Source: Actinomycetospora sp. NBRC 106375 (lineage in GTDB: Bacteria > Actinomycetota > Actinomycetes > Mycobacteriales > Pseudonocardiaceae). From it: a stretch of 64,000 bases of DNA. The position numbers and the translations under genes are program-made. How positions within the stretch are numbered: position 1 is the stretch's first letter; each line of letters begins with the position of its first letter. The notes beneath the pieces were generated by a model. It was given only the letters and a program-made list of their open reading frames with translations, was not told where the DNA came from and made no database searches. Location of the stretch: the NCBI RefSeq assembly GCF_030269665.1, contig NZ_BSTS01000002.1, forward strand, positions 391,060-455,059, in the 5' to 3' direction. Positions 48,439 to 64,000 of the stretch are shown here, piece by piece.

Positions 48439-48444
48439 CCGTGC

Positions 48445-48450: not shown

Positions 48451-48456
48451 CGACGG

Positions 48457-49116
48457 TCAGCGCAGCGCGAGGACGACCTCGACGGCCTCCGGCAGCGTGG
48501 CGACCGCCGGGGCGACGGTCCGCAGATCGGCCTCGTGGTGGGTGGAGTGCTCCGCGACGAGCACGCAGGCGCTGCCGACCGCGGCCGTCGCGGCCGCGTC
48601 GTCGAGCGTGTCGCCGACCAGCACGACCCGCGCGGGATCCAGGCCGAGGGTGTCGAGGTGCCTCGCGAGCGCGTCGGCCTTGCTGCGCCCGTCGTGGTGG
48701 TGGTCGCCGTCGACGCGGGCGAACCAGTCGTGCAGCCCGCGGCGCCCGAGGGTCGCGTGGAGCTCGTCGTGGGCGAGCATGCTCAGGACCGACTGGCCGA
48801 ACCCGGCACCCGCGAACCGCTCCAAGGCGTCCCGCGCCCCGTCCGCCAGCGGCAGCGTTGGCTCGGCGCCCCGGTAGTGCTCGCCGAACACCGCGTTCAG
48901 GCGCGCCCACTCGTCGTCGGGGACCTCCCGGCCGACGAGGTCGGCGTAGAACGCCCGCAGCGGGCGCCGGAACGTCGACCGGTAGCGCTCGAGGTCCAGC
49001 GACGACGCCGCGCCGACGGCCTCCAGGCTGGCGTTGGAGGCGTCGACGACCGCGTGCACGTCGGCGAGCAACGTGCCGTTCCAGTCCCAGACGACGTGGT
49101 CGACCACGGATCCCAT
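48457..49116 (-). CDS. HAD-family hydrolase (phosphoglycolate-phosphatase-like)
   Basis: 219 residues from ATG 49116. HAD motifs: I VWDWNGTLLADV with the nucleophile Asp, II VLSM, III the Lys in GRSKADALARHL, IV VLVGDTLDDAAAT. The helical cap between motifs I and II is the usual Gph-like one. It dephosphorylates a small phosphate ester; a housecleaning role against phosphoglycolate is one option. It begins 6 bases after the CinA-like gene, so the two are co-expressed. Confidence 0.9.
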   Translation of the reverse strand: MGSVVDHVVWDWNGTLLADVHAVVDASNASLEAVGAASSLDLERYRSTFRRPLRAFYADLVGREVPDDEWARLNAVFGEHYRGAEPTLPLADGARDALERFAGAGFGQSVLSMLAHDELHATLGRRGLHDWFARVDGDHHHDGRSKADALARHLDTLGLDPARVVLVGDTLDDAAATAAVGSACVLVAEHSTHHEADLRTVAPAVATLPEAVEVVLALR

Positions 49117-49122
49117 GATCCG

Positions 49123-49593
49123 CTACCGGTCGAGGTGGTCCAGCAACGCCTGCAGTGACCGCACGCGCGTGTGCCGCAGGACGTCGTGCGGGTCGTCGGA
49201 GTCGGTCTGCTCGAGCCACGTTTCGGTGTCGCCGCGGTCGGTGACCGCGAACCAGACCGTGCCCGGGGGCTGGTCGTCCTGCGGTTCCGGACCGCCGGCC
49301 CCGCTGACGGCCAGCGTCAGGTCCGCACCGAGCAGGTCGGCGGCCTTCTCGGCCATCGTCCGCACCGCGGGCTCCGAGACGACGGGGCCGTCGGGCACGC
49401 CGAGCGCGCCGTGCTTCGTCGTCCGGTCGTAGGCGACGACGCCGCCGCGGAACCACTCGCTGGAGCCCGGCGAGGCCGCCAGGTCACTGCACACCAGCCC
49501 GCCCGTCAGCGATTCGACGACCGCCAGCCGACGCCCGTCCCGGGACGCCACCTGCGACACCGACCGCGCGAGCTCCTCCGGATCCTCCGACAC
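49123..49593 (-). CDS. cinA: CinA C-terminal domain protein (NMN deamidase-like)
   Basis: 156 residues from GTG 49593, with GAGGAGG upstream. AVVESLTGGLVCSDLAASPGSS, FRGGVVAYDRTTKHGALGV, EKAADLLGADLTLAVSGAGGP and PPGTVWFAVT match the stand-alone PncC/CinA C-terminal domain, which deamidates nicotinamide mononucleotide to recycle pyridine nucleotides. There is no N-terminal MoCF domain. The open frame upstream belongs to a shadow of the copper ATPase. It lies 59 bases after the ATPase and heads the CinA/HAD pair. Confidence 0.9.
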   Translation of the reverse strand: MSEDPEELARSVSQVASRDGRRLAVVESLTGGLVCSDLAASPGSSEWFRGGVVAYDRTTKHGALGVPDGPVVSEPAVRTMAEKAADLLGADLTLAVSGAGGPEPQDDQPPGTVWFAVTDRGDTETWLEQTDSDDPHDVLRHTRVRSLQALLDHLDR

Positions 49594-49652
49594 CGTGCAC
49601 CTCCTCGTGCGCCGCCGAACGGCGTTGCCGATCGGGGCACGGAGGAAACGCG

Positions 49653-52043: not shown

Positions 52044-52217
52044 GCCGCCACCTCCCCGGTCTGGTCGTCGGTCGACGGCGCGACGCTAGGGGTCACCTCC
52101 GCGCGGGCGCCGGGAGCTGAGAACCCCCGACGGCCCGTCCGACGACCGCTCCCTTCGGGCACGACGAGCGGTCGACGGGTAGCCCGGATGGCGTAGCACA
52201 CGTTCTCAGCCGCGGCG

Positions 52218-52244
52218 GTGTCGACCGAGGTGACGATCGGGTAG
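52218..52244 (+). promoter_or_regulatory. Possible SigB-type promoter for the CsbD gene
   Basis: GTGTCG (52218-52223) and GGGTAG (52239-52244) are 15 bases apart, close to the GTTT-N15-GGGTA form of general-stress sigma promoters. csbD genes are general-stress genes in other Gram-positive bacteria. Confidence 0.4.
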
Positions 52245-52285
52245 GCCCGCGCCCGACCGAGGACCACCGACCGCAGGAGGCACCC

Positions 52286-52495
52286 ATGGCGGAGGACACC
52301 GGCGCCGAGGACCTGAAGGGCCGCGCCAAGGAGGCCGTCGGCGCCATCACGGGCCAGGACGACTGGGCCCGCGAGGGCAAGGAGCAGCAGAAGAAGGCCG
52401 ACGCCGAGGACACCGCCCGCCAGAAGGAGGCGGAGGCCCAGAAGGCCCGCGCCGAGGCGGACAAGAAGGAAGCCGACCAGAAGAAGCACCAGTAG
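52286..52495 (+). CDS. CsbD-like general stress protein
   Basis: 69 residues from ATG 52286, with AGGAGG 5 bases upstream. EDLKGRAKEAVGAITGQDDWAREGK is the CsbD domain; the Lys/Glu/Ala-rich remainder (QKKADAEDTARQKEAEAQKA) is a single charged helix. Such proteins accumulate in general stress and are thought to be disordered or helical protectants. It is monocistronic, divergent from copA, with a SigB-like promoter candidate upstream. Confidence 0.9.
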   Translation: MAEDTGAEDLKGRAKEAVGAITGQDDWAREGKEQQKKADAEDTARQKEAEAQKARAEADKKEADQKKHQ

Positions 52496-52636
52496 TCGGC
52501 GACATCCCGCACACGGCCCCGGACCGGCACGACGCCGGTACCGGGGCCGTCGTGTGTCCGGGGGACCGCGCGGCGTAACGACCGTGATCGCCACACCGAT
52601 GCCCGTGCGTCACACCGGGTCGTCGGAGGAGCAGCA

Positions 52637-52900
52637 GTGACGGTGCTCGTCGTCCTGAGTGCGGTGGTCCTGGGGATCGTCGCCGGGTTCGAGCTGCGGT
52701 TCGTCGGCCTCTGGCTGCTGGTGCGCCTGGCCGACGCGGTCGAGGGCGCCGACCCGCGCGACCACCGCCACTACGGCGACTTCCGCCGGGTGATGGACGA
52801 ACGCGGCGTCGCCGGGCTGGACCTCGCGTGGCGCTCGGAGCCCGACGCCCGCGGGCGGGCCGCCGACCGTCCCGACTGGCAGCTCCACAGCGGGTTCTGA
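52637..52900 (+). CDS. Small protein with one N-terminal membrane segment
   Basis: 87 residues from GTG 52637, with CGGAGGA upstream. VLVVLSAVVLGIVAGF forms a hydrophobic start, followed by a Leu-rich amphipathic part and a charged tail (DPRDHRHYGDFRRVMDERGV). No family is recognised. It follows the csbD gene by 141 bases and may be expressed separately. It ends about 185 bases before a hairpin that could terminate it. Confidence 0.6.
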   Translation: MTVLVVLSAVVLGIVAGFELRFVGLWLLVRLADAVEGADPRDHRHYGDFRRVMDERGVAGLDLAWRSEPDARGRAADRPDWQLHSGF

Positions 52901-53084
52901 CGTTAGGGGCGGCCGCCGCGTGGGGTACATCGCGGCCAGGCTGACCGGATGCCCGCGGGCTGATCGTCGGCTCAGGTCCCGCCGGTTCCCTGTCATGAGC
53001 CGGCGGGGCCGCCCGACGCCTCCCGCGTCGGCCCGTCACCCGATCGGCGACCGCCCGTGTCGTCTTTCGGCACGGACACACCGA

Positions 53085-53112
53085 CGGGCCGCACCCTGCC
53101 CGGTGCGGCCCG
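53085..53112. terminator. Hairpin between convergent small membrane-protein genes
   Basis: CGGGCCGCACC (53085-53095) pairs with GGTGCGGCCCG (53102-53112) around CTGCCC. It lies in the roughly 320-base gap 52901-53224, which otherwise shows no gene, and could end transcripts from either side. Confidence 0.55.
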
Positions 53113-53224
53113 CCGGCTCGTCGCTCGCGCGACCTGCCCGGTAAGTCGCGCCGGCGATCACGGGCGTTAGTCCACGTCCGGGTGAAGCGCTCCCGTCCCG
53201 CGTCACGACGAGCGGGGGTCGGCG

Positions 53225-53503
53225 TCACGCCACGGCGTTGCGCCGGCGGCGGTAGGCACCGCCCCAGGCGTGGCTCGCGAGATCGGCGAACACGGCGATC
53301 GCGAGCCAGATCCAGTCCGGCCCGACGACGCCGCCCGGCGCGACGAGCATGTACATCAACGTCGTCCACGGAAGCAGCAGGAAGCCGAGGATCGGCCACA
53401 GCAGCGTCCCGAAGGTGACGCTCCACTGCAGCGGGGCGAGCAGCCACCACACGACGATCACGAAGCGCGGGCCGAAGACCAGCAAGAGGATGAGCAGGCA
53501 CAC
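53225..53503 (-). CDS. Small membrane protein
   Basis: About 92 residues from GTG 53503; the frame is open to 53593 but the upstream part is Pro/Arg-rich and unlike the rest. Three hydrophobic helices are seen: VCLLILLLVFGPRFVIVVWW, a segment around FGTLLWPILGFLLLPWTTLM, and DWIWLAIAVFADLASHA. The tail GGAYRRRRNAVA is basic. Similar proteins are scattered through actinobacteria without assigned function. TATCAC lies 6 bases before the GTG, so it could be leaderless. Confidence 0.65.
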   Translation of the reverse strand: MCLLILLLVFGPRFVIVVWWLLAPLQWSVTFGTLLWPILGFLLLPWTTLMYMLVAPGGVVGPDWIWLAIAVFADLASHAWGGAYRRRRNAVA

Positions 53504-54532
53504 GCTGCGGTGATAGCAAGCGGCACGGGACCGCGTCCCCACCCGCAGAGGATGATCCGTGGGGTCTGGCGGCCGTTCTACCAGCGCCGACACGGAGCGC
53601 TACGCGGACCAGTGCGAGGTGACCCGACCGGGGGTGGGGAGTGGGACGGTTGCTCCGTTCGGCACCGCGGAACTCCACGGAAGCACGAACGGACCCGACG
53701 TGCGCCACGCCGCCACCGAGCCGTGGACCGTGGCAGCGCCGGCTCGGGGCCCGGCGACTTGAAGGACGCCGGCGGGCCCAGGGGGGAGCGTGCCCGGTGG
53801 CGACCACAACGGTCGAACAGATCGATGGCGGCGTGGACGCCCATCCGATTCCTCGCGGCGCGCCGGTCCAAACCGCGGAATCCCGCGGACGACGCTCCCG
53901 CCGCCGAACCGCCGGAATCCGTCGCCGAACGGCGCGGTGAGGTCACGCCAGCAGGGTCCCCGGAGCCGGCTCGTAGGGCGCGAAGAAGTCGTTCGCGCTC
54001 GCCCCAACCAGGGTGAGCACCAGCGCGGGTACCGCGACGCCGTCGATCTGTTCGCGGACGACGTCGGCGTGCCGGGCGTACTCCTCGAGCAGGTGCACCA
54101 GGTAGTAGCTAGGCCGCCAGGGCTCGCCGTGGGGTCGGACGATAATCCGCGCCGCTACGAGTCGGCCTGGACGGCGAGAGTCTCGCAGATCAGCTCGGTC
54201 GGATCGATGTTCAGACCGGCTGCTGCGCAGCCCCGGGCCGCCACCTCCGGCTGCCCCCGGCGCGTGGCGCCCGCCCAGGGTCACCGAGCCGGCCTCATGG
54301 CGTGCTGCTCACCGCTCGCGATGTGTCGTGGCGTTCCTTCGGCCCGCAGGCCGCGGTGACGTCGCTGTCCCATCGTCGCGGCCAGCATCCACAGACCGGC
54401 GCCCACCGCCAGAGCCTGCAGCCCCTCGCGGGCATCCCCAGCGATCTCCCCCACGCGAGGCTGACCTGCTCGGGCAACGCCGGCGCCGGCGAGCCCATGT
54501 CCCCACCGGGCACAAGAGGGCAACCTCGTGGC
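53504..54532. other. About 1 kb with no intact gene
   Basis: The frames here are short, lack family patterns and conflict with each other. The only recognisable coding trace is the DinB-like fragment listed separately. The base composition is a little lower in GC than the flanks. It marks the start of the accessory region. Confidence 0.6.
53943..54125 (-). pseudogene. C-terminal fragment of a DinB/DUF664 protein
   Basis: About 60 residues before the stop include RPSYYLVHLLEEYARHADVV and REQIDGV. This is the C-terminal helix of DUF664/DinB proteins, usually written as [24 protein letters not shown]. The metal-site His is present, but nothing matching the rest of the domain is found upstream. 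It is a decayed remnant. Confidence 0.65.
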
Positions 54533-55147
54533 GTGGACGCTCTCCAGATGGCGACGGCCGAGCGGACCGACCTGGCGGATCTCCTGGCGACGCTGAGGCC
54601 CGAGCAGTGGGAAGCCCCGTCGCTGTGCGAGGGCTGGCGCGTCCGCGACGTGGTCGCTCACGTCATGAGCTTCGACGTCAGTTTGCTTGGGATGTCGCGC
54701 CGTGCGATCCGCGGTCGGATCGTCCGCACCAACCAGGCCGGCGTCGACGAACTCGCGCTACTCAGTACCGATGCGCTCCTCGACAAGCTAAGAGCTCACC
54801 TGCGGCCACAGCGGCTGGCCGCAGCCTTCGGGGGACGCCTCGCCCTGCTCGACGTCACCGTTCATCACCAAGACATCCGACGGCCACTGGATCTGCCGCG
54901 CGACATTCCGGTCGAACGGCTGCGCCTGGTCCTGGACTGCAGCCTGCGCAGTCTGGAGCTGCCGACCTGGCGCATCGCCCGCGGCGTACGCCTGGTGGCG
55001 TCCGATCTGGACTGGAGCCACGGCTCAGGGCCAGAGGTGTCCGGACCGGCGGAGGCCATACTGATGGCGATCACCGGTCGGCCATGCGCGGCCGGTGAGC
55101 TGACCGGTCCAGGGCGACCGGTCGTGGCCGCCCGGCTTGCTCACTGA
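54533..55147 (+). CDS. Maleylpyruvate isomerase/mycothiol-dependent DinB-like family (TIGR03083)
   Basis: 204 residues from GTG 54533; ATG 54497 is an in-frame alternative. ERTDLADLLATLRPEQWEAPSLCEGWRVRDVVAHVMSF (core PSLCEGWRVRDVVAHV) is the family signature, with the metal-binding His in AHV and further His in VTVHHQDIRRPL. The C-terminal SCP2-like half (GPAEAILMAITGRP, core AEAILMAITGR) completes it. Such proteins use mycothiol or a metal in isomerase or transferase reactions. The gene is intact and lies between two decayed stretches. Confidence 0.85.
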   Translation: MDALQMATAERTDLADLLATLRPEQWEAPSLCEGWRVRDVVAHVMSFDVSLLGMSRRAIRGRIVRTNQAGVDELALLSTDALLDKLRAHLRPQRLAAAFGGRLALLDVTVHHQDIRRPLDLPRDIPVERLRLVLDCSLRSLELPTWRIARGVRLVASDLDWSHGSGPEVSGPAEAILMAITGRPCAAGELTGPGRPVVAARLAH

Positions 55148-55430
55148 CCTCATCGGCGAACCACCGGGAACCGCATGGGTGGCGCGGCGACTGCCCGCCT
55201 GCCGGACGGGTCCTTGTCCGCGCAACCTTCCGCTGCCCGCGGACACTCTTCGATACGAGCTTCTCCAGTGATCTACGCTGTGTTGGCGGTGGGCCGCGTG
55301 TAGCGGGACCAACGTCCTCGCCTGACCCATCGCCACCGAGCCGGCCTGGGGCCAGATCAAGTCGTCCTAGTGGGGCCAGCGGGAGTTGACATTCTCACCG
55401 CGACGGCCATCGCCGTGACGGTCCTGGGGG
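55148..55430. other. Non-coding or decayed DNA before the minus-strand peptide array
   Basis: No intact gene is seen in about 280 bases. One plus-strand frame (LVGPAGVDILTATAIAVTVL) may be a scrap of a transposase, but it is too short to name. Confidence 0.45.
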
Positions 55431-55464
55431 CTATCGGCTCGGGGCGGGACTGTCCGACGAGCGG
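55416..55464 (+). repeat. IS256-end-like direct repeat, left copy
   Basis: TGACGGTCCTGGGGG then C-TATCGGCTCGG (55416-55442), and GGGACTGTCCGACGAGCGG (55446-55464), recur at 63284-63310 and 63340-63358 in the same order and orientation. The left copy lacks about 29 bases between the two parts. The second part abuts the IS256-type transposase piece at the right copy, so it is probably the transposon end. Confidence 0.75.
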
Positions 55465-55499
55465 CGGCCGCGGGTGATGCGGCGGGAGCGGGTCAGCAT
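55431..55499 (-). CDS. Micro-ORF, MLTR-type basic peptide, 3' end replaced by IS sequence
   Basis: 22 codons from ATG 55499. The first 13 residues MLTRSRRITRGRR match the array consensus; after that the frame runs into the IS-end repeat and codes SSDSPAPSR. The normal C-terminal end was probably lost when the IS end arrived. It is the last member of the minus-strand array. Confidence 0.65.
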   Translation of the reverse strand: MLTRSRRITRGRRSSDSPAPSR

Positions 55500-55592
55500 G
55501 ATTGGTCTCCTCGAGGGTCGGATGGACAGTGCTTCGGTTATCCGGAGCTGCATCGGCCGCGGGTGCGGCGCTGAATCTTGGTGATCACAGCG

Positions 55593-55643
55593 TCAGCCGC
55601 GGGAGGTGCGGCCGCGATTGACGCGGCGGAAGCGAGTCAGCAT
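55593..55643 (-). CDS. Micro-ORF, MLTR-type basic peptide
   Basis: Encodes MLTRFRRVNRGRTSRG, 16 residues. An in-frame ATG two codons upstream (MAMLTR) is an alternative start. GGAUG-like GAGGA/CGAGGACGATGG context provides an RBS (GAGGACGA, 5-8 bases upstream of the earlier ATG). Consensus MLTRxRRxxRGR is intact. Confidence 0.7.
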   Translation of the reverse strand: MLTRFRRVNRGRTSRG

Positions 55644-55688
55644 GGCCATCGTCCTCGAGCTTTCGGTGGGTGCGTACAAGGGCGGTTT

Positions 55689-55739
55689 CTAGCCGCGGGA
55701 TATGCGACCGCGGGTGACGCGGCGGTAGCGGGTCAGCAT
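55689..55739 (-). CDS. Micro-ORF, MLTR-type basic peptide
   Basis: Encodes MLTRYRRVTRGRISRG, 16 residues. AGGAAGGA lies 8 bases before the ATG on the minus strand, a good ribosome site. The C-terminal ISRG ending is like the TSRG of the next copy and differs from the LP ending of the plus-strand copies. Confidence 0.75.
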   Translation of the reverse strand: MLTRYRRVTRGRISRG

Positions 55740-55783
55740 GACTAGATCCTTCCTGAGCAGCCGCGGGGTGCGGATGGTTTGGT

Positions 55784-55903
55784 TCAGCCGGCGCTGCGGC
55801 GGCCGCGGGTGGTGCGGCGTCCGAGTCGGCGCAGGCCGGTGGCCCGCTCGGGGGTGGTCGTCTCGCGGGTGATGACGGCGGTGGCGGCGCTGCGGTGGCT
55901 CAT
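55784..55903 (-). CDS. Small ORF with related Arg-rich end (39 aa)
   Basis: 39 residues from ATG 55903: MSHRSAATAVITRETTTPER, then ATGLRRLGRRTTRGRRSAG. The end LGRRTTRGRRSAG resembles the core of the 15-residue peptides (RRLTRGRR). GGAG lies 7 bases before the ATG. It could be a longer precursor whose first half acts as a leader, and is the first of the minus array together with the overlapping 18-residue ORF. Confidence 0.65.
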   Translation of the reverse strand: MSHRSAATAVITRETTTPERATGLRRLGRRTTRGRRSAG

Positions 55904-55956
55904 CGGTGGCTCCTGGGCTGCGGGGCTTCGTCGGCGGGCTTGCTCGGTGTTGCCAT
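55900..55956 (-). CDS. Very small ORF overlapping the 39-aa ORF (18 aa)
   Basis: Encodes MATPSKPADEAPQPRSHR; its stop overlaps the next ATG (ATGA), suggesting translational coupling. No strong RBS is visible. Coding is supported only by the overlap and the position between the M50 gene and the peptide array. Confidence 0.4.
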   Translation of the reverse strand: MATPSKPADEAPQPRSHR

Positions 55957-56018
55957 GAAGTCTGCTGGCCCCGGGCCACCGATCCCATCGCGGCGGGGCG
56001 AGGAACTCGTCGTGGTCC

Positions 56019-56046
56019 GGTAAGGGTCCTCTTACCGAGGGGTAAG
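56019..56046 (-). promoter_or_regulatory. CTTACC repeats 22 bases apart, upstream of the minus peptide array
   Basis: On the minus strand CCTTACC occurs at 56047-56041 and again at 56025-56019, exactly 22 bases apart. Between them GGTAAG on the same strand (CTTACC at 56031-56036 on plus) makes inverted pairs. The same hexamer with 22-base spacing occurs at 61023-61072. It is in the 285-base gap 55957-56241, which holds no other gene. Confidence 0.6.
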
Positions 56047-56241
56047 GCCGCTGATCCACGTCCCGGTGTCCGGGACGATGCTGACGTCGAGTTGCCACGG
56101 CTGCCGAAACGCGAGCGGCCGGATCGGCTGGCGGATCGAGATCGCAGGGGGTCCGCCCGATCGGCCCGAGTGGGTGCCGACGCCGCGGCCGGGCGGGAGG
56201 CGTGGACTGAGGAGGCCAGGCCCTGAGAGGTGGCCGCCGGT

Positions 56242-58113
56242 CTACGGGCGTGGGGATGGCGCCGGGTGGTGTGGGGGTTCGTCGCCGCGTGCTCGCGGTG
56301 GCGCGAGTCGTGTCGCTGGTCGGTGGGGAATCCCGGCCGAGGTGGTGAGGCGGGAACCGCGAGAGGTAAGCGCGGTGGCACCGGTTCGTGCCCTGCGTGG
56401 TCGGGGGGTGAGGGTCAGGGTCGGTGCTTCGGGGTGCTGTCCGAGGGCAACGACCGTGCTCCCTAACCGCAGTTGGTGGTGCTCGATGGGGTACGCGTCG
56501 ACGAGGATGCCATTGGCGCTGTGGTTGATGATCTCCCAGCCCTCGGGGTGGGGGCGCAGGGTGAGGTGATGGCGCGAGACTCTCGGGTCGTCGATTCGGA
56601 CGTCGTTGTTGAGGTCACGCCCCACCTGGTATTCGCGGTGAGAACGCAGTACCCGCCGCCGGGTTCCGGGCGCGATGAGGACCTCGAGGTCGTCACCCAC
56701 GGACGCGGCGCCGAGCGCCGGTGCGGTGATGCCCGGAACGGTCAGGCCGGCCACGGTGACCTCGTCGAAGCCGGCGGGGTCGGAGTGGGAGCCGGCGGAC
56801 TCCGGGCTGTCGGGTTCGCCGTCGGGAGGGGCGCTGTCGGGCTGCGGGGGTTGCGCCGGTGTGCTGGCGACTTCGACGACCAGCCCGATGAGGCTCGCCA
56901 GCAGGCTCAGCGCGAAGGGCACGACGACGTAGAGCCCGATCAGGATGTCGGCGAGGTTGCCGGAGAACAGCGCGAGGATGAGGTCCCCGGCGGCGTACCA
57001 CCAGACGAGCGCGCCGCCGGAGAGCAGCACCCCACCCCCGAGCAGCGAGGCGGCCCCGTAGATTGCGAGCCATCGGGCTCCGGCCGTCTGGCGGCCGCGC
57101 AGGCGGGCCCCGAAGGCGCTGCGGGCGCGCTGGGCGAGGTCGGGCTCGTCGAGGTAGTCCGCGAGCGCCCAGTGCCCGTCGAGCTCGAGGATGGGGGCGG
57201 CGTTGGTGAGCAGGTCGACGATCCCAGTCACGGCGAGACGCCAGAACACCGCTGTGATCAGCACCGTGCTGCTCAGGTGCGCGGTGATGGCCAGCAGGCT
57301 GATGGCGACGGTGTCGACGGCGAGCCCGGCGAGGGCTTGGGTGACCCGCGCGCGCCGCGGCAGGGTGACCGCGTCGGTGGAGTCGACGTAGAAGCAGATC
57401 GAGCCCCAGTAGAACCCGAACCCGGCGCGGCGCGGGGTGCCGCCGTAGTGGACCAGGGCCACGGCGTGGGCGAGTTCGTGGGCCGCGGCGAAGACGAGCA
57501 CGAGCGTGATCCCGAGCAGCGCGTCCACCGCGGGGTGGGCGCTGACGGTGGGGCCGGGCGGGCGGCCGAGGGCGAGCGCGACGACGCCGGCGACCACGAC
57601 GCCGGCGAGTAGGACCAGTGCCAGTCGCTGGGTCAGTACGGGCACGAGGTAGCGGTCGATCCAGCGGGCGGGGATGTCGATCCCGGAGAGCTCGACCCCG
57701 TGCCGGCTGACGTGCACCCGTCGAGGCCGGGACGGCGCCGACGACTGCTCCGGCGAGGCGGTGTCCGCTGTCCCCCCCGTCCCCGCCGCGCCGTGACGGG
57801 GACCGCGGACCGGATCCTCGGTGAGGATGCCGGCCTCGAGCATCTGCTCGATCAGCTCGGCGCCCGGGGCCAGCTCGGCGCCCGGGGCGAGGTCGACCAC
57901 CGGTGCCGCGCTGCCCGGCATGGTGCCCGACGTGGGCTCGGCGGCCTGGTCGAGGGAGCTGGCGAGCTCGTCGCGGTCGGCGCCGCGGATGAGCAGATCG
58001 GGAAGCACCGCGGCCCCGGGGTGCTCGAGGAACAGCGCGTCGGAGTCCGGGAGGGCGAGGACCAGACCGCGCTTGCTCACCCGCCACCGAACGCCGTCGG
58101 CGAAGCGGACCAC
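56242..58113 (-). CDS. Membrane M50 (site-2-protease-like) metallopeptidase with C-terminal FHA domain
   Basis: 623 residues from GTG 58113, preceded by GAGGAGGGTGAGGG. Residues 1-55 (RWRVSKRGLVLALPDSDALFL, then AAVLPDLLIRGADRDEL) look like a PqqD-type winged-helix, the fold that binds RiPP leader peptides. Several membrane helices follow from residue 160. HELAH (212-216) is the zinc-binding HExxH, and NAAPILELDGHWALADYLDEP (304-324, Asn-x-x-Pro...Leu-Asp-Gly) is the second M50 motif in the form used by peptide zinc metalloproteases of the YydH type. Residues about 500-580 are an FHA domain (YQVGRDLNNDVRIDDPRVSR, then HHLTL). It follows the kinase gene and precedes the minus peptide array, so it may process those peptides under kinase control. 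Confidence 0.85.
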   Translation of the reverse strand: MVRFADGVRWRVSKRGLVLALPDSDALFLEHPGAAVLPDLLIRGADRDELASSLDQAAEPTSGTMPGSAAPVVDLAPGAELAPGAELIEQMLEAGILTEDPVRGPRHGAAGTGGTADTASPEQSSAPSRPRRVHVSRHGVELSGIDIPARWIDRYLVPVLTQRLALVLLAGVVVAGVVALALGRPPGPTVSAHPAVDALLGITLVLVFAAAHELAHAVALVHYGGTPRRAGFGFYWGSICFYVDSTDAVTLPRRARVTQALAGLAVDTVAISLLAITAHLSSTVLITAVFWRLAVTGIVDLLTNAAPILELDGHWALADYLDEPDLAQRARSAFGARLRGRQTAGARWLAIYGAASLLGGGVLLSGGALVWWYAAGDLILALFSGNLADILIGLYVVVPFALSLLASLIGLVVEVASTPAQPPQPDSAPPDGEPDSPESAGSHSDPAGFDEVTVAGLTVPGITAPALGAASVGDDLEVLIAPGTRRRVLRSHREYQVGRDLNNDVRIDDPRVSRHHLTLRPHPEGWEIINHSANGILVDAYPIEHHQLRLGSTVVALGQHPEAPTLTLTPRPRRARTGATALTSRGSRLTTSAGIPHRPATRLAPPRARGDEPPHHPAPSPRP

Positions 58114-58274
58114 CCCTCACCCTCCTCACCGTTGTGGTGCTCTCGCCCTGGCGCCTCAGACGCGCGGTGCGACTCTTCGATCGTGGCCACGGCCTTCAGG
58201 CGAAGGCTGCTGTCGCCGCGGAACCGCGGGATCAGCGCGCAGGGTTGCGAGGCAGCCAGGATGAATGACTCCAC
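58077..58274 (-). CDS. Possible 65-aa ORF in the kinase-protease gap
   Basis: From GTG 58274 (CCGAGG just upstream) to 58077, overlapping the protease start by 37 bases. It begins VESFILAASQPCALIPRFRG, has a central Leu/Ala helix (SLRLKAVATIEESHRA) and a Gly/Glu-rich end finishing in FGGG. A leader-like helix and a small-residue tail would suit a precursor peptide, but no family supports it. The 205-base gap between the kinase and protease genes contains nothing else. Confidence 0.35.
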   Translation of the reverse strand: MESFILAASQPCALIPRFRGDSSLRLKAVATIEESHRASEAPGREHHNGEEGEGWSASPTAFGGG

Positions 58275-58318
58275 CTCGGCGTGGCCGCGCTTTCGAGGAA
58301 GTCGCTCTAATGCCGGGC

Positions 58319-60976
58319 TCAGGACGCGATGCTCAGCACGGTGAGCGCGTTGGTCTCCTTGTTGGTGACGTAGGCGAAGCGACCGTCGGGTGAGACGGCC
58401 ACCATCCACGGGCTGGTGCCGAGCGGGATGGTCGATGTGACGGCCCCGGTGTCGGTGTTGATGACCGAGAGGTTGTTGGTGGCGTTGTTGACCACGTAGC
58501 TGTGCCGCCCGTCGCGGGCGAACGCGATCGACTGCGGGTTGCGACCGACCGGGACGGTGCCGAGCACCTGGTTGGTGGCGGTGTCGATGGTCGAGACCGT
58601 GTTGCCCTCGTAGTTGGTGACCTGCGCGCGGCGCCCGTCGGGCATGACCGCGATGCTGTGCGGGGCCACCATGTCCCCGATCGGGATCACCCCGGTGACG
58701 GTGTTGCTGCGGGTGTCGAGGACGGTGACGACCCCCGAGTGGTGGTTGGCCGCGTAGGCGATCCGCCCGGTCGGGGAGAACGCGATCCAGTGCGGGCTCT
58801 CCGGGACCGGGATCTGGGTGACGACGCTCTGGCGGGCGGTGTCGATCACCGTGACATCGCCCGAGTCGTGGTTGGGCACATAGACCCGGGACCCGTCCGG
58901 GGAAACCGCCAGCCCGAACGGACGCTTCTGCCCGGTGGGGATGACCGCGGTGAACGCGTTGGCGCGGGTGTCGAGGACCGCGACCGCGTTCTGGTCCCGG
59001 CTGGGGTCATAGAGGGTCACATAGGCACGGGCCCCGGAGGGCTCCATGGCGATGAACTGGGGCGGTCCCGGTGCCGGGATCGTGGTCAGCAGCCGCCCGT
59101 CGGTGGTGTCGACGACGTTGACCACGTTGCCGCCGCCGCTGCCGGTCACATAGGCCAGCCGGCCGTCCGCGGACAGCGCGATCGCTTCGGGAGCGTTGCC
59201 CACGCTGAGGGTGGCCGTGATGGTCGGGGTGTCGGTGCTGCGCAGCACCGGCCCGGCTGGGGCCAGCGGGATCGCCACCCCGCCACCGGCATCGTCAGTT
59301 GTCGCCGGGCCAGCACCCACCGAGGTGCCGATCACGACACCGAGCACGAGCACCAGCACCAGGCCCACCGCCGAACCCACCCACACCAGCGTGCTCCGGG
59401 AACGTCCCGAGGATCCGTCGACAGGTCCCCCCGCGGACGGTCCCGTGGGCGGAGGCGGCGGGAACGGCGGCTCGGAGGGAGGCGATGGCCGGGGCTGCGG
59501 TGTCGGACCAGCCGAGTTGGTTCCGGCGGTTCCGTTGGTTCCGGCGGTCCCGCCCGGCGCCGCCGCCGGGCTCGCGGTCTCGATCGTGGAGGTCGAAGCA
59601 TCCGCGGTTGCGGTCCGTGCCGCGGGTGCCGCGGCGGTTGTCGGGCGGGTGGCCAACGCCGTCGGTGCTCCCCCGTCCATCCGCGGGGTAGCAACCGTGA
59701 CCGAGCGTGCCGCAGCGAGCACACCTGGGGCCGCCCCCCGGTTCGCGCCTGTCCGAGGCGCCGCGGACGCGCTACCCGGCTCAGAGGCGGCCTCAGCCGT
59801 GGTCTCGGTCGTGGTTTCGGCGGTGGGCTCTGACGCGGGCACGACCGCGGGCTCATCGGCCTCGAGCTCGCTCGTGACGGGATCGGCGCTCGCCGCGGCC
59901 ACTGCGGCGTTCGAAACCGACGCCTGGCCCGGAGGAAGGGCGACCTCGGTGCCCCCGGGCACCGCGAGGGGCGCGACGGCCCCCTCGGAGCCGGCGCCCT
60001 GGCCCGATGTCGGACCCGTGGGCAGCACCCCGGCGGTCGGGCTGGCGGCGGTCGGGCTGGCGGCGGCCTGGCTAGCGGCGGTCTGCTCGGCGGCGTGCTC
60101 GGCGGTGTCGCTGTGGGTGTTGCTGTGCGTGGTGCCCTCGCCGCCGGCCTGGGCGAGCGCCTCGCGGGCGGCGGCGGCCAGGGCCCCGGCGCTGGGGTAG
60201 CGCTGGTCTGGGTCTTTGGCCAGCGCCTGGGCGATGACGTCGTCGAATCGCTCGCCGAGTTCCGGACGGGTCTGTGAGGCCAGCGGCGCGGGCTGGGTCA
60301 GGTGCGCCCGCATCAGCTGCGGGAAACCCTCGAACGGGAACGGTTTGCTCCCGGTCAGACACTGGAACAGCAAGCAGCCCAACGAGTAGATGTCGATCTC
60401 GGGGCCGGTCACCCCGTCGAACTGTTCGGGGGCCATGTAGTCCAAGCTGCCCACCACGGCGTGGGTCGAGGTCAGGGACTGGCTCTCGCCGCCGATCGCC
60501 CGGGTGATCCCGAAGTCGGCGAGGTAGACGAAGTCGTAGGCGCCGACCGCGGTGTCGAGCAGGACGTTCGACGGCTTGATGTCGCGGTGTATCAGCCCGG
60601 CGTGATGCGCGGCGTCGAGCGCGCTGGCGACCTGGTCGATGATCGCCACCGCCTGGGCCGGGGTCAGCGCCGGTTCGCGGCTCAGTCGCTTCTCGAGATC
60701 GCAGCCGTTGACCATGCGCATGTCGATGAACAGCTGGCCCTCGATCTCCCCGGAGCGGTGGATCGGGATCACGTGCGGACTGCTCAGACGGGCGGCCAGG
60801 CGCGATTCCCGCCGGAACCGCTTCTGGAACTCCGCGTCGTGCACCAGATGCGGCACCAGGCGCTTGAGCGCCACGGTGCGATCTTGTTCGCTGTCGTGGG
60901 CCTCGAAGACCTCGCCCATGCCGCCGCGCCCGATCAACCGCACCAACGTGTACGGGCCGAACTGTTCCTCGCCCAC
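58319..60976 (-). CDS. Transmembrane Ser/Thr kinase with extracellular YVTN-type beta-propeller
   Basis: 885 residues from GTG 60976, where GGGGGGAT precedes by 7 bases; the frame is open to TTG 61042. The kinase is complete: RLIGRGGMGEVF, Lys38 in VALKRL, HRDIKPSN (130-137), DFG (154-156) and YMAPEQFDG. A 230-residue Ala/Thr/Pro-rich juxtamembrane region follows, then one membrane helix (about 529-553) and, outside the cell, seven repeats of about 42 residues such as PFGLAVSPDGSRVYVPNHDS, forming a propeller. The unusual sensor suggests detection of a surface ligand. It is divergent from the FHA regulator and upstream of the M50/FHA protease, both plausible phospho-targets. Confidence 0.92.
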   Translation of the reverse strand: MGEEQFGPYTLVRLIGRGGMGEVFEAHDSEQDRTVALKRLVPHLVHDAEFQKRFRRESRLAARLSSPHVIPIHRSGEIEGQLFIDMRMVNGCDLEKRLSREPALTPAQAVAIIDQVASALDAAHHAGLIHRDIKPSNVLLDTAVGAYDFVYLADFGITRAIGGESQSLTSTHAVVGSLDYMAPEQFDGVTGPEIDIYSLGCLLFQCLTGSKPFPFEGFPQLMRAHLTQPAPLASQTRPELGERFDDVIAQALAKDPDQRYPSAGALAAAAREALAQAGGEGTTHSNTHSDTAEHAAEQTAASQAAASPTAASPTAGVLPTGPTSGQGAGSEGAVAPLAVPGGTEVALPPGQASVSNAAVAAASADPVTSELEADEPAVVPASEPTAETTTETTAEAASEPGSASAAPRTGANRGAAPGVLAAARSVTVATPRMDGGAPTALATRPTTAAAPAARTATADASTSTIETASPAAAPGGTAGTNGTAGTNSAGPTPQPRPSPPSEPPFPPPPPTGPSAGGPVDGSSGRSRSTLVWVGSAVGLVLVLVLGVVIGTSVGAGPATTDDAGGGVAIPLAPAGPVLRSTDTPTITATLSVGNAPEAIALSADGRLAYVTGSGGGNVVNVVDTTDGRLLTTIPAPGPPQFIAMEPSGARAYVTLYDPSRDQNAVAVLDTRANAFTAVIPTGQKRPFGLAVSPDGSRVYVPNHDSGDVTVIDTARQSVVTQIPVPESPHWIAFSPTGRIAYAANHHSGVVTVLDTRSNTVTGVIPIGDMVAPHSIAVMPDGRRAQVTNYEGNTVSTIDTATNQVLGTVPVGRNPQSIAFARDGRHSYVVNNATNNLSVINTDTGAVTSTIPLGTSPWMVAVSPDGRFAYVTNKETNALTVLSIAS

Positions 60977-61022
60977 CAGATCATCCCCCCGGCCGAACCA
61001 CTCGATGACACTATGTCGCAGG

Positions 61023-61072
61023 CTTACCCCCAAGTGATACAACTCTTACCGAAGTGGCAGGAAAGTCTTACT
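61023..61072 (+). promoter_or_regulatory. Three CTTAC(C/T) repeats at 22-base spacing in the divergent promoter
   Basis: CTTACC at 61023-61028 and 61045-61050 and CTTACT at 61067-61072 are each exactly 22 bases apart, two helical turns. TAATCG follows at about 61078 and could be a -10. Direct repeats at 11- or 22-base spacing next to a -10 are typical of SARP-like activators. The same hexamer and spacing is found at 56019-56046. Confidence 0.65.
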
Positions 61073-61237
61073 GTCCGTAATCGCATCAGCGTGGTAGGAG
61101 CCGCCGCCGGTAGCGACATCTCGGACGTGTGGCGGCGCCGCCGAGGCGCTACGCGGCGAGTGGCGTCGGGGCTCGGTCCGCGTCTCGGCCCGAGGTGCTG
61201 GCGGGTGACATTGGGGGACGAGACGGGATGATCAGCG

Positions 61238-61909
61238 GTGATGATGACGAGATGGGTCACGGGGGGCGGCGCATCCGGGAGCACGTCCGCGTACGGGGGT
61301 GGATCGGCGGTACCGACCAGCTTCCTCGAGGTGGCACGGCCCGGTGGCCTCGAGGTCGTGCTGCTCACCGGGGCGTCGGTGACGATCGGCCGAGCCGAAG
61401 GCAACGCAGTGGTACTCGGTCACGACACCCAGGTCTCCTCGATGCACGCGGTCCTGCAGTCCTACGGTGCGGGCTGGGCGATCAGGGACCTGGGCAGCAC
61501 CAACGGCACCGTCGTGGCCGGTGAACGGCTCGTCGCCGAGCGAGCGCTACGCCACGGCGACACCATCCAGCTCGGTCGCACCCACCTGACCTTCCGCAGC
61601 AGCGGCGCCGGCCAACTCGCCCCGACCACCGCACCCCGCCGCGCCCCCGAACTCACCCGCCGCGAACGCGACGTGCTCATCGCGCTGTGCCGACCCCTGT
61701 TCTCCGGCGACGTGTTCACCGAGCCGGCCACCGCCCGCACCATCGCCGAGGTACTCGTGGTCACCGAGGCCGCGGTCAAACAGCATCTGCTGCGCCTCTA
61801 CGACAAGTTCGACCTCAACCCCAACAGCACCCGCCGCCGCGTGGAGCTCGCCAACGAAGCCCTCCAGCGTGGCGCGGTCACCCCCGCCGAGCTCCGCGCG
61901 ACCCCCTAG
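61238..61909 (+). CDS. FHA-domain protein with C-terminal DNA-binding (winged-helix-like) domain
   Basis: 223 residues from GTG 61238, with ATG 61241 and 61244 as alternatives. Residues 25-120 are an FHA phosphothreonine-binding domain: VTIGRAEGNAVVLGHDTQVS, then SMHAVL and DLGSTNGTVV. From residue 137, ELTRRERDVLIALCRPLFSG to RTIAEVLVVTEAAVKQHLLRLYDKFDL and RRRVELANEAL resembles the HTH of actinobacterial FHA regulators paired with kinases. It is divergent from the kinase and lies upstream of the nine-copy peptide array. The simplest model is that phosphorylation at or near this protein switches the two arrays on. Confidence 0.85.
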   Translation: MMMTRWVTGGGASGSTSAYGGGSAVPTSFLEVARPGGLEVVLLTGASVTIGRAEGNAVVLGHDTQVSSMHAVLQSYGAGWAIRDLGSTNGTVVAGERLVAERALRHGDTIQLGRTHLTFRSSGAGQLAPTTAPRRAPELTRRERDVLIALCRPLFSGDVFTEPATARTIAEVLVVTEAAVKQHLLRLYDKFDLNPNSTRRRVELANEALQRGAVTPAELRATP

Positions 61910-62268
61910 AGCGATCACGCACGCCCGGCATCCACCTCAAGCCGCACCACCACCACCGCAGCCTCGGCCGATCGCCGACGGTCCCCCGCGCGACCGCGTG
62001 CCCGCTCCGCGCGGCGAGCAGTAAGACCGCGCGGCGGCTGGACCGGGTCCTCACCTCCGCAGGACCAGAACTCGCGAGGCGAGCACTCGCGGGCGCCACC
62101 GGCAGACGGGGCCAGCGCGCCACCCTCACCCCTTCCCTTCCGGTCAGGTTCTTCTAACCCTCGTGAACGGGAAAGCTCACCGCACAGCGATAGCAACGCC
62201 CAGCACACCAGGGCAACATTATCCCCAACACCGAACAGACATACCACCACGAACAACAGGAGAACCCG
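61910..62268. other. Leader region of the plus-strand peptide array
   Basis: About 360 bases without a convincing gene. CATTAT (62213-62218) is the most likely -10 for the array; its 5' leader would be about 45 bases. AT content rises sharply from 62160 onward compared with the coding DNA before it. An open frame at 62163-62414 is a shadow that ignores the micro-ORFs. Confidence 0.4.
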
Positions 62269-62316
62269 ATGCTTACCCGATTCTCGCGCCGCACCCGCGG
62301 CCGCCGCTTCCCCTGA
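62269..62316 (+). CDS. Micro-ORF 1 of plus array: MLTRFSRRTRGRRFP
   Basis: 15 residues, stop TGA. AGGAGA (62258-62263) is well placed 5 bases before the ATG. It is the first of nine consecutive micro-ORFs on this strand with the same start and core. Confidence 0.75.
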   Translation: MLTRFSRRTRGRRFP

Positions 62317-62356
62317 CCATCCGCCGCCCGACCCGAACGAGACAACGGAGACTTCG

Positions 62357-62404
62357 ATGCTCACCCGACACCAGCGCCGCACTCGCGGTAAGCGCTTCCC
62401 TTAA
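62357..62404 (+). CDS. Micro-ORF 2: MLTRHQRRTRGKRFP
   Basis: 15 residues, stop TAA. CGGAG (62346-62350) lies 6 bases before the ATG. Differences from copy 1 are at positions 5, 6 and 12, with synonymous changes elsewhere (CTC for CTT, CGA kept). Confidence 0.75.
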   Translation: MLTRHQRRTRGKRFP

Positions 62405-62446
62405 CCATCCTTAGCTAGCCCTCCGACACTGCGACAGGAATCCCTA

Positions 62447-62494
62447 ATGCTGACTCGTGCACGCCGCCTAACCCGCGGCCGCCACCTCCCCTGA
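62447..62494 (+). CDS. Micro-ORF 3: MLTRARRLTRGRHLP
   Basis: 15 residues, stop TGA. AGGAA (62436-62440) precedes the ATG by 6 bases. From this copy onward position 8 is Leu, giving the consensus RRLTRG. Confidence 0.75.
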   Translation: MLTRARRLTRGRHLP

Positions 62495-62517
62495 TCTGCA
62501 ACGAGTAGGGACATCTC

Positions 62518-62565
62518 GTGCTGACCCGATCCCGCCGCCTCACCCGCGGCCACAGGCTTCCCTAA
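62518..62565 (+). CDS. Micro-ORF 4: MLTRSRRLTRGHRLP (GTG start)
   Basis: 15 residues with a GTG start and a TAA stop. AGGGA (62507-62511) lies 6 bases upstream. The change of start codon while the frame and length are kept argues for translation. Confidence 0.75.
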   Translation: MLTRSRRLTRGHRLP

Positions 62566-62597
62566 TCTCCACTCGACCTCCGCCAGAAAAGGAAAAG

Positions 62598-62648
62598 ATG
62601 ATGCTCCTCCGTGCTCGCCGCCTCACGCGCGGCCGCCGTCTCCCCTGA
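62598..62648 (+). CDS. Micro-ORF 5: MMLLRARRLTRGRRLP
   Basis: 16 residues if the first of two adjacent ATGs is used, 15 from ATG 62601. AAAAGGA (62587-62592) precedes. Thr3 is Leu here; the core RARRLTRGRRLP is intact. Confidence 0.72.
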   Translation: MMLLRARRLTRGRRLP

Positions 62649-62682
62649 ACGTCTCTCAAGTCCCACCCGAAAAGGACATCGC

Positions 62683-62730
62683 ATGTTGACCCGATCGCAC
62701 CGCCTCACCCGCGGCCGCCGTTCCCCCTGA
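62683..62730 (+). CDS. Micro-ORF 6: MLTRSHRLTRGRRSP
   Basis: 15 residues, stop TGA. AAAAGGA (62670-62675) lies 7 bases before the ATG. Leu2 uses TTG rather than CTG, a synonymous change. Confidence 0.75.
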   Translation: MLTRSHRLTRGRRSP

Positions 62731-62763
62731 CAATCCCGCTGTTCCGCAGAAAGAAGATGTCGG

Positions 62764-62811
62764 ATGCTGACTCGAACCCGCCGCCTCACCCGCGGCAAGC
62801 ATCTTCCCTGA
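62764..62811 (+). CDS. Micro-ORF 7: MLTRTRRLTRGKHLP
   Basis: 15 residues, stop TGA. AAGAAG (62751-62756) is the nearest purine-rich tract. An out-of-frame ATG lies 7 bases earlier. The core is intact. Confidence 0.72.
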   Translation: MLTRTRRLTRGKHLP

Positions 62812-62860
62812 CCGTTCCGAGCACATCACGCGCTCTGGCCCGAAAGGAGGTGACGTCCCG

Positions 62861-62908
62861 ATGCTGACTCGAACCCGCCGCCTCGCCCGCGGTCGCCGCA
62901 CGCCCTGA
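62861..62908 (+). CDS. Micro-ORF 8: MLTRTRRLARGRRTP
   Basis: 15 residues, stop TGA. It has the strongest ribosome site of the array, AAAGGAGGTGA (62843-62853), 7 bases before the ATG. Thr9 is Ala. Confidence 0.78.
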   Translation: MLTRTRRLARGRRTP

Positions 62909-62964
62909 AAGCCGCCGCGCTTCACCCCAAGCAACCACCCTCAACCACCGACGAGGTGCTTCCG

Positions 62965-63012
62965 ATGCTGACTCGTTCCCGCCGCCTGACCCGCGGCCGC
63001 AAGAATGCCTGA
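62965..63012 (+). CDS. Micro-ORF 9: MLTRSRRLTRGRKNA
   Basis: 15 residues, stop TGA. GAGGTG (62953-62958) lies 6 bases before the ATG. It is the last copy, with a different end (KNA in place of xLP), and is followed 58 bases later by the terminator. Confidence 0.75.
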   Translation: MLTRSRRLTRGRKNA

Positions 63013-63070
63013 CTCTCACGGAGCCCCGCCAGAGTGCTTCTACGGGGCAGACACAGCCCGCATCAACCAG

Positions 63071-63109
63071 AGCCCGAGCCGACGCACAGAAGCGCTGGCT
63101 CGGGCTTTT
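63071..63109 (+). terminator. Rho-independent terminator of the plus peptide array
   Basis: AGCCCGAGCC (63071-63080) pairs with GGCTCGGGCT (63097-63106), a 10-base-pair stem with a 16-base loop, followed by TTT. It is the clearest intrinsic terminator in the window and supports transcription of the nine micro-ORFs as one RNA. Confidence 0.8.
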
Positions 63110-63283
63110 CCGCCCTGACACCCCCAAGGTGCTTCGGTCGGCGATTGTAAGTGGCCGCCGATGACGGCTTTCCGGATCAGCTCAGCGATACCGCGGCGCA
63201 AAGCAATCCATAGGGATGAAATTCCCGGGCGTGTGCTCGGAACTCTCCAGATCTGAGCGCTGACGCGCGAGCGCGCGATGCCC

Positions 63284-63358
63284 TGACGGTCCTGGGGGTT
63301 ATCGGCTCGGCACGAACCGGAGTCATCCGCGCCTTCAGGGGGACTGTCCGACGAGCGG
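63284..63358 (+). repeat. IS256-end-like direct repeat, right copy
   Basis: Matches 55416-55464 in two blocks (63284-63310 and 63340-63358) with 29 extra bases between them. The second block ends 20 bases before the stop of the IS256-type transposase fragment, so it is probably the transposon's terminal sequence. The 170 bases between the array terminator and this repeat show no intact gene. Confidence 0.7.
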
Positions 63359-63377
63359 TGTAACTGGCATTGACAGG

Positions 63378-63632
63378 TCAGTTGGTGGTTGACGGGACGA
63401 TACGGCCGGGGAACGCGATCGCGAAGGCGTTCAACGCTGGCTTCCAGCGCATCGCCCAGCGGGTCCGGCCCTTGCCGGTCGGATCGAAGGATCTCGTGAC
63501 GAGGTAGAGGCACTTGAGGGCGGCCTGCTCGGTCGGAAAGTGCCCGCGGGCCTTGACCGCGCGGCGGTAGCGGGCGTTGAGGCTCTCGATCGCGTTGGTC
63601 GAGCAGATCACCTTGCGGATCTCCACGTCGTA
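63378..63632 (-). pseudogene. IS256/Mutator-family transposase, C-terminal fragment
   Basis: About 84 residues remain, reading VEIRKVICSTNAIESLNARY, RRAVKARGHFPTEQAALKCL and a Trp-containing NRW-like end (RTRWAMRWKPALNAFAI). STNAIESLN and the RGHFP turn mark the end of the IS256 DDE transposase, including the region after the catalytic Glu. The N-terminal part is missing because another IS begins at 63633. Not functional. Confidence 0.85.
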
Positions 63633-64000
63633 GAGCCTGTTGCAAAATCAGCGTGTCGCAGGAGTGGATCTTTGGGTGCGGTGGCGAGGATGAGCAGCGT
63701 GGCCCGCTCGTACCGTCCCGTGCAGCGTGACCAGGGGTTCTTGTTGCCGCCGGACATGCGTGAATGGCTGCCCGAGGACCATCTGGTCTGGCTGGTGCTC
63801 GAGATCGTGCCCCAGCTGGATCGTTCGCAGTTGCATGCCCGGCACCCGAACATCGGGGCGGGGCGGTCGGCCTACGACCCCGACCTGCTGCTCGCCCTGT
63901 TGATCTACGCCTATTGCCACGGGGTTCGCTCATCGCGGCAGATCCAGCAGCGCTGCGTCACGGACGTGGCATTCCGGGTGCTGTGCGCCCAGGACGTCCC
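63633..64000 (+). mobile_element. IS1182-like insertion sequence, left end, inserted in the IS256 remnant
   Basis: GAGCCTGTTGCAAAATCA (63633-63650) is a terminal sequence of the type found on IS1182/IS4-like elements, and starts exactly where the IS256 transposase frame is broken. The transposase gene follows 40 bases later. The right end is beyond the window. Confidence 0.75.
63690..64000 (+). CDS. IS1182-family transposase, N-terminal part (runs off the window)
   Basis: From ATG 63690, open to the window edge (103 codons). It begins MSSVARSYRPVQRDQGFLLP, followed by DMREWLPEDHLVWLVLEIV, then GAGRSAYDPDLLLALLIYAY and GVRSSRQIQQRCVTDVAFR. PxDMRxWLPxDHL and the YDPxLLLxLLIYAYCxGxRSSRxIxxxCxxDxAFR segment are the N-terminal DUF772 pattern of IS1182 transposases. 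Whether the element is intact cannot be seen. Confidence 0.88.
   Translation, partial: MSSVARSYRPVQRDQGFLLPPDMREWLPEDHLVWLVLEIVPQLDRSQLHARHPNIGAGRSAYDPDLLLALLIYAYCHGVRSSRQIQQRCVTDVAFRVLCAQDV

Follow-up and report, generated by a model that had tools for sequence, protein, structure and literature searches.

In the daptides, MpaP/DapP, a site-2 protease carrying a RiPP (ribosomally synthesized and post-translationally modified peptide) recognition element (RRE), is described as the leader peptidase (PMC10036551). Membrane M50 enzymes are also reported to mature other small ribosomal peptides, among them EpeP/YydH/LiaK for the epipeptides and TglG and TmoG for the pearlins, the latter two cutting at the C-terminus (PMC10885120). 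A further site-2 protease, Eep, is described as contributing to a signal made from the C-terminus of a tiny open reading frame (ORF) product, the SHP/Rgg pheromones (PMC3150281). Here, we analyze a 64,000-nucleotide stretch of Actinomycetospora sp. NBRC 106375 (the window), in which 14 ORFs for Arg-rich peptides surround the gene of a membrane protease that we predict to be an RRE-bearing site-2 protease of the M50 family, and we compare this locus with its relatives.

On the minus strand a kinase gene is followed by the gene of the M50 protein, an ORF of 39 residues and four ORFs of a 15-mer type (55431-55903). Nine 15-codon ORFs of the type MLTRxRRLTRGRRxP, spaced 71-104 nt apart, lie on the plus strand 3' of a gene encoding a forkhead-associated (FHA) domain and a helix-turn-helix-like (HTH) tail (62269-63012). 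A first-pass annotation of the sequence had named a kinase, an M50-FHA protease, an FHA regulator and micro-ORF arrays on either side, and our ORF and domain calls recovered all of these parts.

Pfam did not call M50 (PF02163) on the window protein at E thresholds of 0.001 and 0.01, and matched 9 of 87 members. The assignment is made because the protein matches the NCBIfam daptide_HExxH model (2.6e-33; 115.7 bits, below the cut-off of 300), because H212, E213, H216, D312 and G313 are invariant in all 87 aligned members (the window protein and 86 of 118 homologues, alignment A2; a second alignment, A4, holds 74), and because of the predicted fold, which is an RRE (PqqD-like) fold at the N-terminus and a site-2-protease membrane fold in the remainder. 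Five homologues scored 91.8-125.3 bits against the same model and cut-off. Micromonosporaceae are among the sources of the 118 homologues. The predicted fold agrees with the PqqD-like N-terminus suggested in the first-pass annotation, and we predict from it that the protein is a site-2 protease with an N-terminal RRE. A Foldseek search with the whole model returned nothing at E<=0.001, so a single-domain model was built, which also returned nothing at this threshold (best 0.017). The plasmid collection held no close relative, only daptide-type proteases on three Streptomyces virginiae plasmids (37.6-39.6% over 108 residues), and the viral collection held no M50 relative.

Several features of the arrays suggest that the micro-ORFs are genes, putatively translated. 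A simple sequence test finds a Shine-Dalgarno-like sequence before 12 of the 13 15-mer-type ORFs, the exception being 55538-55588. The plus array is under frame-specific substitution, with a pairwise ratio of nonsynonymous to synonymous change (pN/pS) of 0.62 in the reading frame and of 1.38 and 1.09 out of frame; its ORFs are 73% identical as against 30% for the 40 nt past each stop, and starts and stops of the aligned ORFs are conserved while the spacers are unalike. For the minus array pN/pS was 0.96 (codons 2-10), the three complete ORFs being neither numerous nor similar enough to reveal constraint. A DNA pattern of the arrays occurred five times in the 6.8-Mb assembly, every time inside the two arrays, and never in a reversed control. 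We also observed by eye, in an alignment from GC-rich genomes (A3; L032, L033, L072, L075, L073), frequent use of CGT instead of CGC as the Arg codon of the peptide heads, a preference that may reflect high expression.

To place the protease in context, we searched for M50 relatives in 61 genomes of relatives, 200 and then 397 genomes of the order, 112 and 251 genomes of two further families and 325 genomes of the class, in partly overlapping sets; a search in the three-genome family of G040 found nothing. A cut-off of E<=1e-30 gave 12 loci in 11 genomes and dropped G052 (34%, 2.6e-24), G785 (34%, 1.3e-27) and many weaker or FHA-only matches. At nine of the 12 loci, Arg-rich micro-ORFs of 14-17 residues, roughly M-[LI]-x-[RK]-x-x-R-[LR]-[AT]-R, stand beside the M50 gene on the same strand, the nearest at most 0.6 kb away. 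In the window genome (G000) the adjoining array is the minus one. Four micro-ORFs adjoin the gene in G010 (MLRRLRRLARNWRT and kin), three at G015:C4, four in G1087 (MIRKL[TN]RLAR...) and two in G633 (MIRKLTRLARAIRGRI and MIRKLTRLARAMRGR), and single ones do so in G356 (MLRRLRRLARARSWR), G471 (MLRRLRRLARGRLWR), G391 (MLRRIRRLTRKFRLR) and G555 (MIRRLARRLTRGRTRRY). A tenth locus, in A. termitidis (G007), is linked at a distance: six window-type 15-mers and forms of about 37 residues such as MTQQSTTIVTGETAESTRSTGLRRLPRRIARGRRSRG lie 17.6 kb from an FHA-HTH/M50 pair. The last two loci, G400 with an intact M50 gene and G015:C13 with a fragment, have no Arg-rich micro-ORFs. Adjacency beyond the window thus backs the partnership of protease and peptides proposed in the first-pass annotation. 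The other neighbor genes vary between lineages and only the protease and the 14-17-residue peptides recur; with neighbors this different, the core resembles a module of two parts that is present in four families of one order. Since relatives of both parts adjoin in other families of the order, processing or export of the peptides is the likely role of the protease.

In G1087 (L109, about 8600-9700) the M50 gene is broken by a frame change beside four well-formed micro-ORFs. The A. termitidis array (L066, 9634-11013) is stand-alone, and its forms of about 37 residues bear an extra Thr-rich N-terminus; by eye, a usual start codon appears to be absent from one of the long copies. A methyltransferase-domain gene adjoins this array with a second likely one beyond it, and there is a kinase-like ORF (27% identity) at a distance of about 4.6 kb.

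The relatives' peptides were first located by DNA repeats, by a peptide search model (R1) or by Arg content, and we examined the specificity of these patterns. A loose motif derived from the peptides was scanned over 110 records (614,614 bases, some overlapping), which had mostly been chosen for an M50, R1 or R2 match and are not random sequence. All matches fell inside these arrays except two ORFs that have no Shine-Dalgarno sequence (L033:1664 and L041:1261), the reversed sequence of the same records gave none, and the 18-kb locus of G052 (L035) contained no motif ORF. R1, trained on G000, gave strong matches in two of 249 family genomes, its training source and G007, both with M50. R2, trained on G010, G015, G356, G471 and G391, gave strong matches in three of 397 order genomes (G471, G356 and G391), all among the six with M50. 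Matches in the genomes that had no strong match were taken as noise (28 of 30 for R1, best 4.2e-5; 23 of 26 for R2, best 7.2e-6); G309 and G420, inspected individually, held no matching ORF, and the small loci of the listed matches were included in the motif scan. Neither search thus turned up peptides that persist where the protease is missing, the finding that the first-pass annotation had named as fatal to its proposal. This absence is weak evidence, because the models miss known diverged peptides: R1 is blind to those of G010 and G015, and R2 found, among five peptide-bearing M50 genomes in the 397, just its three training genomes, missing G000 and G1087. Our estimate for the partnership is unchanged by the weakness of this test because it rests on adjacency.

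In a table of 35 peptides, which leaves out the G555 peptide as its register is one residue off, M1, R7 and R10 are invariant, although the motif itself required R or K at position 7 and R at position 10. Position 2 is L, I or F, position 4 is R or K in 32 of 35, position 8 is L, R, V or I, and position 9 is T, A or N. Mean entropy is lower over positions 2-10 than over the tail in the plus array (0.60 against 1.00), G010 (0.00 against 0.70), G015 (0.20 against 0.86) and G1087 (0.11 against 1.33), and both G633 ORFs likewise pair a conserved head with a variable tail. Four of the five arrays with at least three complete relatives look like a fixed recognition head followed by a variable tail. 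The net charge of the peptides is +5 to +8 in the ten tested, opposite to that of the predicted RRE (-10).

With the daptides, as that class is described (PMC10036551), the locus has in common an intramembrane site-2 protease with an N-terminal RRE (here both predicted), more than one short putative precursor ORF and a host among the actinomycetes. It differs in that the peptides are 14-17 residues long and Arg-rich, with ELExMEAP in 0 of 35 and a C-terminal Thr in 1 of 35, and in the low score against the daptide model. No aminotransferase, alcohol dehydrogenase, methyltransferase or DUF-RRE was found by a Pfam scan among the eleven distinct window ORFs of 47533-63933, and no enzyme is conserved among the neighbor genes scanned. 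By the features tested, the peptides are not daptide precursors, and the system appears to work like RRE-site-2-protease RiPP maturation. Epipeptide and pearlin systems similarly combine a membrane M50 enzyme with a small ribosomal peptide, but their peptides are described as modified by partner enzymes (PMC10885120), and the NCBIfam LiaK model matches the window protein weakly (E 7e-6, 25.9 of 225 bits). Eep offers a works-like comparison only, as SHPs are hydrophobic and no RRE is mentioned in the available part of that account (PMC3150281). In the open-licence PMC literature we did not find this peptide-protease system in print; there, the terms 'site-2 protease', 'RiPP', 'RRE' and 'precursor peptide' co-occur only in the daptide paper (PMC10036551), and no membrane protein is mentioned in the available portions of the RRE-Finder paper (PMC7470986) or the structure-based RRE paper (PMC12710340).

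These comparisons point to a grip-and-cut mechanism, which we propose because the RRE-site-2-protease is the published daptide leader peptidase and because M50 enzymes mature epipeptides and cut pearlin scaffolds C-terminally. The locus would supply Arg-rich peptides of 15-16 residues together with a predicted membrane site-2 protease, whose N-terminal RRE would grip the conserved first ten residues of each peptide at the membrane. The protease would then cut after this head and set free the few remaining C-terminal residues, a small basic product that would be released outward and, one step further, might serve as a signal or an antagonist. In this genome only, the FHA-tailed protease, the propeller-sensor kinase and the FHA-HTH regulator would add phosphothreonine control, the least certain step. 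On balance we lean, by a little, towards this account as a whole. Several observations weigh against parts of it: the fixed-head pattern is not seen in the minus array or in A. termitidis, where mean entropy is 0.81 over positions 2-10 and 0.65 over the tail; a kinase directly adjoining M50, an FHA tail and an FHA-HTH gene occur together at the window alone among the 12 loci; and a 12.6-kb stretch of a Rhodococcus pseudokoreensis plasmid (NZ_CP070614.1, 322400-334969; L110), in which an FHA-HTH gene is divergent from those of two hypothetical proteins and a Ser/Thr kinase, contains no M50 match and no matching peptides. One of these hypothetical proteins has a Gln-rich repeat.

A broader form of the proposal, which we hold only tentatively, is a two-gene minimal cassette: a single RRE-site-2-protease, with no modifying enzyme, would recognize a ten-residue Arg-rich head and turn hypervariable tails of four to six residues into a multi-component peptide code, with fourteen members here under phosphothreonine control. 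In daptides, such a fusion carries out the final step of a longer pathway; in the present loci, protease and peptides are the only parts seen to recur across the four families. Such a peptide system would be very small and new to the literature, and is easily missed because gene annotation commonly skips ORFs so short. It poses the testable question of whether an RRE-bearing site-2 protease suffices on its own for a peptide product to be made and released, and the window may offer a case in which a kinase controls peptide maturation.

Another possibility, to which we give a limited share of belief, is that the kinase phosphorylates a conserved Thr of the peptides, or some other partner, and that both FHA domains read the mark. 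The kinase, FHA-protease and FHA-HTH genes adjoin one another, and six membrane spans read from predicted helices would place the RRE and the FHA domain on the cytosolic side. The kinase is PknB-like (Pkinase 3e-45), with a C-terminal beta-propeller and, by eye, one likely transmembrane stretch near residues 551-577, so that the 'sensor kinase' of the first-pass annotation holds as a kinase but is of the Ser/Thr and not the histidine type. FHA matches were 2e-12 in the M50 tail and 3e-17 in the FHA-HTH protein, whose C-terminal tail is weakly like GerE and sigma-70 region 4. Pairs of a Ser/Thr kinase and an FHA-domain regulator are known, as in EmbR/PknH; as in such pairs, and on the Rhodococcus plasmid, a sensor-type kinase is encoded close to an FHA protein whose tail resembles a DNA-binding one, but here an FHA domain is also found on the protease, and the set lies between peptide arrays. 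Thr at position 9 (RRxT context) is found in 16 of 19 peptides from the two genomes with the FHA regulator and in 1 of 16 from the others (G555 excluded), an enrichment that fits peptide phosphorylation but comes from one lineage. Against kinase gating, all three parts come together in this genome only, and the Rhodococcus stretch suggests that FHA-HTH and kinase may be a separate regulatory module. The FHA tail is present on one of 87 M50 members scanned, the window's own, and no precomputed FHA domain was found among the 118 homologues. The FHA-HTH gene occurs at two of the 12 M50 loci, the window and A. termitidis, where it adjoins M50 (74% identity) with no kinase between and the M50 protein has no FHA tail. 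A Ser/Thr kinase lies within about 4 kb of M50 at three loci (window, A. termitidis and G010), all in this genus, which supplies five of the 12; only in the window does it directly adjoin M50. Kinase gating as a general feature is thus not borne out. From these gene neighborhoods, we take the kinase/FHA set for a regulatory module of its own that became joined to the peptide module in this lineage. Of the earlier interpretation, the pairing of peptides and protease finds support beyond the window, and the kinase half appears lineage-specific. Elsewhere in the window, 17360-18103 encodes another Ser/Thr kinase domain, with 44% identity to the locus kinase.

The peptides could instead be complete as encoded, cationic and membrane-active in the manner of antimicrobials, and act at full length, with the M50 protein only exporting or trimming them or protecting the producer. 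Their positive charge would suit this role, as would the account of EpeP, an M50 enzyme thought to cleave and export an antimicrobial (PMC10885120). Hydrophobic moments (muH) divide the set: peptides of G010 and G015 are strongly amphipathic (0.86 and 0.89, reached by 33 and 13 of 2000 shuffles) and those of G1087 and G633 are so to a lesser degree (76 and 101 of 2000), but the window and A. termitidis peptides tested are non-amphipathic (0.17, 0.36 and 0.11, reached by 1718, 879 and 1841 of 2000) and G356, G471 and G391 not clearly amphipathic (726, 636 and 192 of 2000). The head, moreover, is more conserved than the rest in most arrays. We consider whole-peptide action unlikely. The moments also led us to reject the idea that all the peptides form amphipathic helices.

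Upstream attenuator ORFs, in which Arg codons would stall ribosomes and so control the M50 gene, are a very improbable explanation. The ORFs do lie upstream of M50 at eight of the nine adjacent loci, and G356, G471, G391 and G555 each have just one. In the window, however, one array comes downstream of M50 and the other after a different gene on the opposite strand, the A. termitidis array is 17.6 kb off, attenuation needs no array of up to nine tandem copies, and the heads are conserved as amino acids while synonymous sites vary; we rejected attenuation on these grounds. Repeated DNA that mimics ORFs (regulatory sites or mobile repeats) is hardly credible and was likewise rejected. The repeats are short, similar and GC-rich, and a transposase fragment and further short repeats flank the locus, which would suit this reading. 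Against it stand the frame-specific substitution, the conservation of starts and stops, the Shine-Dalgarno-like sequences, the greater identity of ORFs than spacers and the like peptide pattern in other families.

Table 1. Features of the peptide-protease locus, in window coordinates.
Feature	Position	Strand	Remarks
Micro-ORF p1	62269..62316	+	MLTRFSRRTRGRRFP; AGGAG upstream; matched by peptide model R1 (trained on p1)
Micro-ORF p2	62357..62404	+	MLTRHQRRTRGKRFP; R1 match
Micro-ORF p3	62447..62494	+	MLTRARRLTRGRHLP; R1 match
Micro-ORF p4	62518..62565	+	GTG start; MLTRSRRLTRGHRLP; R1 match
Micro-ORF p5	62601..62648 (alternative start 62598)	+	MLLRARRLTRGRRLP; R1 match
Micro-ORF p6	62683..62730	+	MLTRSHRLTRGRRSP; R1 match
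Micro-ORF p7	62764..62811	+	MLTRTRRLTRGKHLP; R1 match
Micro-ORF p8	62861..62908	+	MLTRTRRLARGRRTP; R1 match
Micro-ORF p9	62965..63012	+	MLTRSRRLTRGRKNA; R1 match
Micro-ORF m1	55689..55739	-	MLTRYRRVTRGRISRG; R1 match
Micro-ORF m2	55593..55643	-	MLTRFRRVNRGRTSRG; R1 match
Micro-ORF m3	55538..55588	-	GTG start; MITKIQRRTRGRCSSG; no clear Shine-Dalgarno sequence
Micro-ORF m4	55431..55499	-	MLTRSRRITRGRRSS plus tail DSPAPSR from a repeat common to the Mutator-transposase flank
39-residue ORF, longer peptide type	55784..55903	-	N-terminal extension plus LRRLGRRTTRGRRSAG; same type in A. termitidis array L066
RRE-M50-FHA membrane protein, 623 residues	56242..58113	-	Domain, fold and alignment evidence
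Predicted RRE (PqqD-like) domain, residues 1-102, net charge -10	57808..58113	-	
HELAH (HExxH) zinc motif, residues 212-216	57466..57480	-	
FHA domain of M50 protein, residues 495-554	56452..56631	-	Sole bearer among 87 members
Ser/Thr kinase with C-terminal beta-propeller	58319..61042, start probably 60976	-	
FHA and C-terminal HTH-like protein, 223 residues	61238..61909	+	Likely regulator
Mutator-family transposase fragment at locus flank	63378..63626	-	
Repeat region	63280..63358	+	Two short stretches match 55412-55464 at the opposite locus edge

An Rfam scan of 50000-64000 returned no family at gathering score, and a promoter and terminator scan was uninformative. The end of m4 looks replaced, as this micro-ORF runs into the short repeat that recurs beside the Mutator-family transposase fragment. 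Window positions 63540-64000 hold what we take to be a further transposase-like ORF at the contig end. Near the locus, 49653-52043 encodes an ordinary heavy-metal P-type ATPase.

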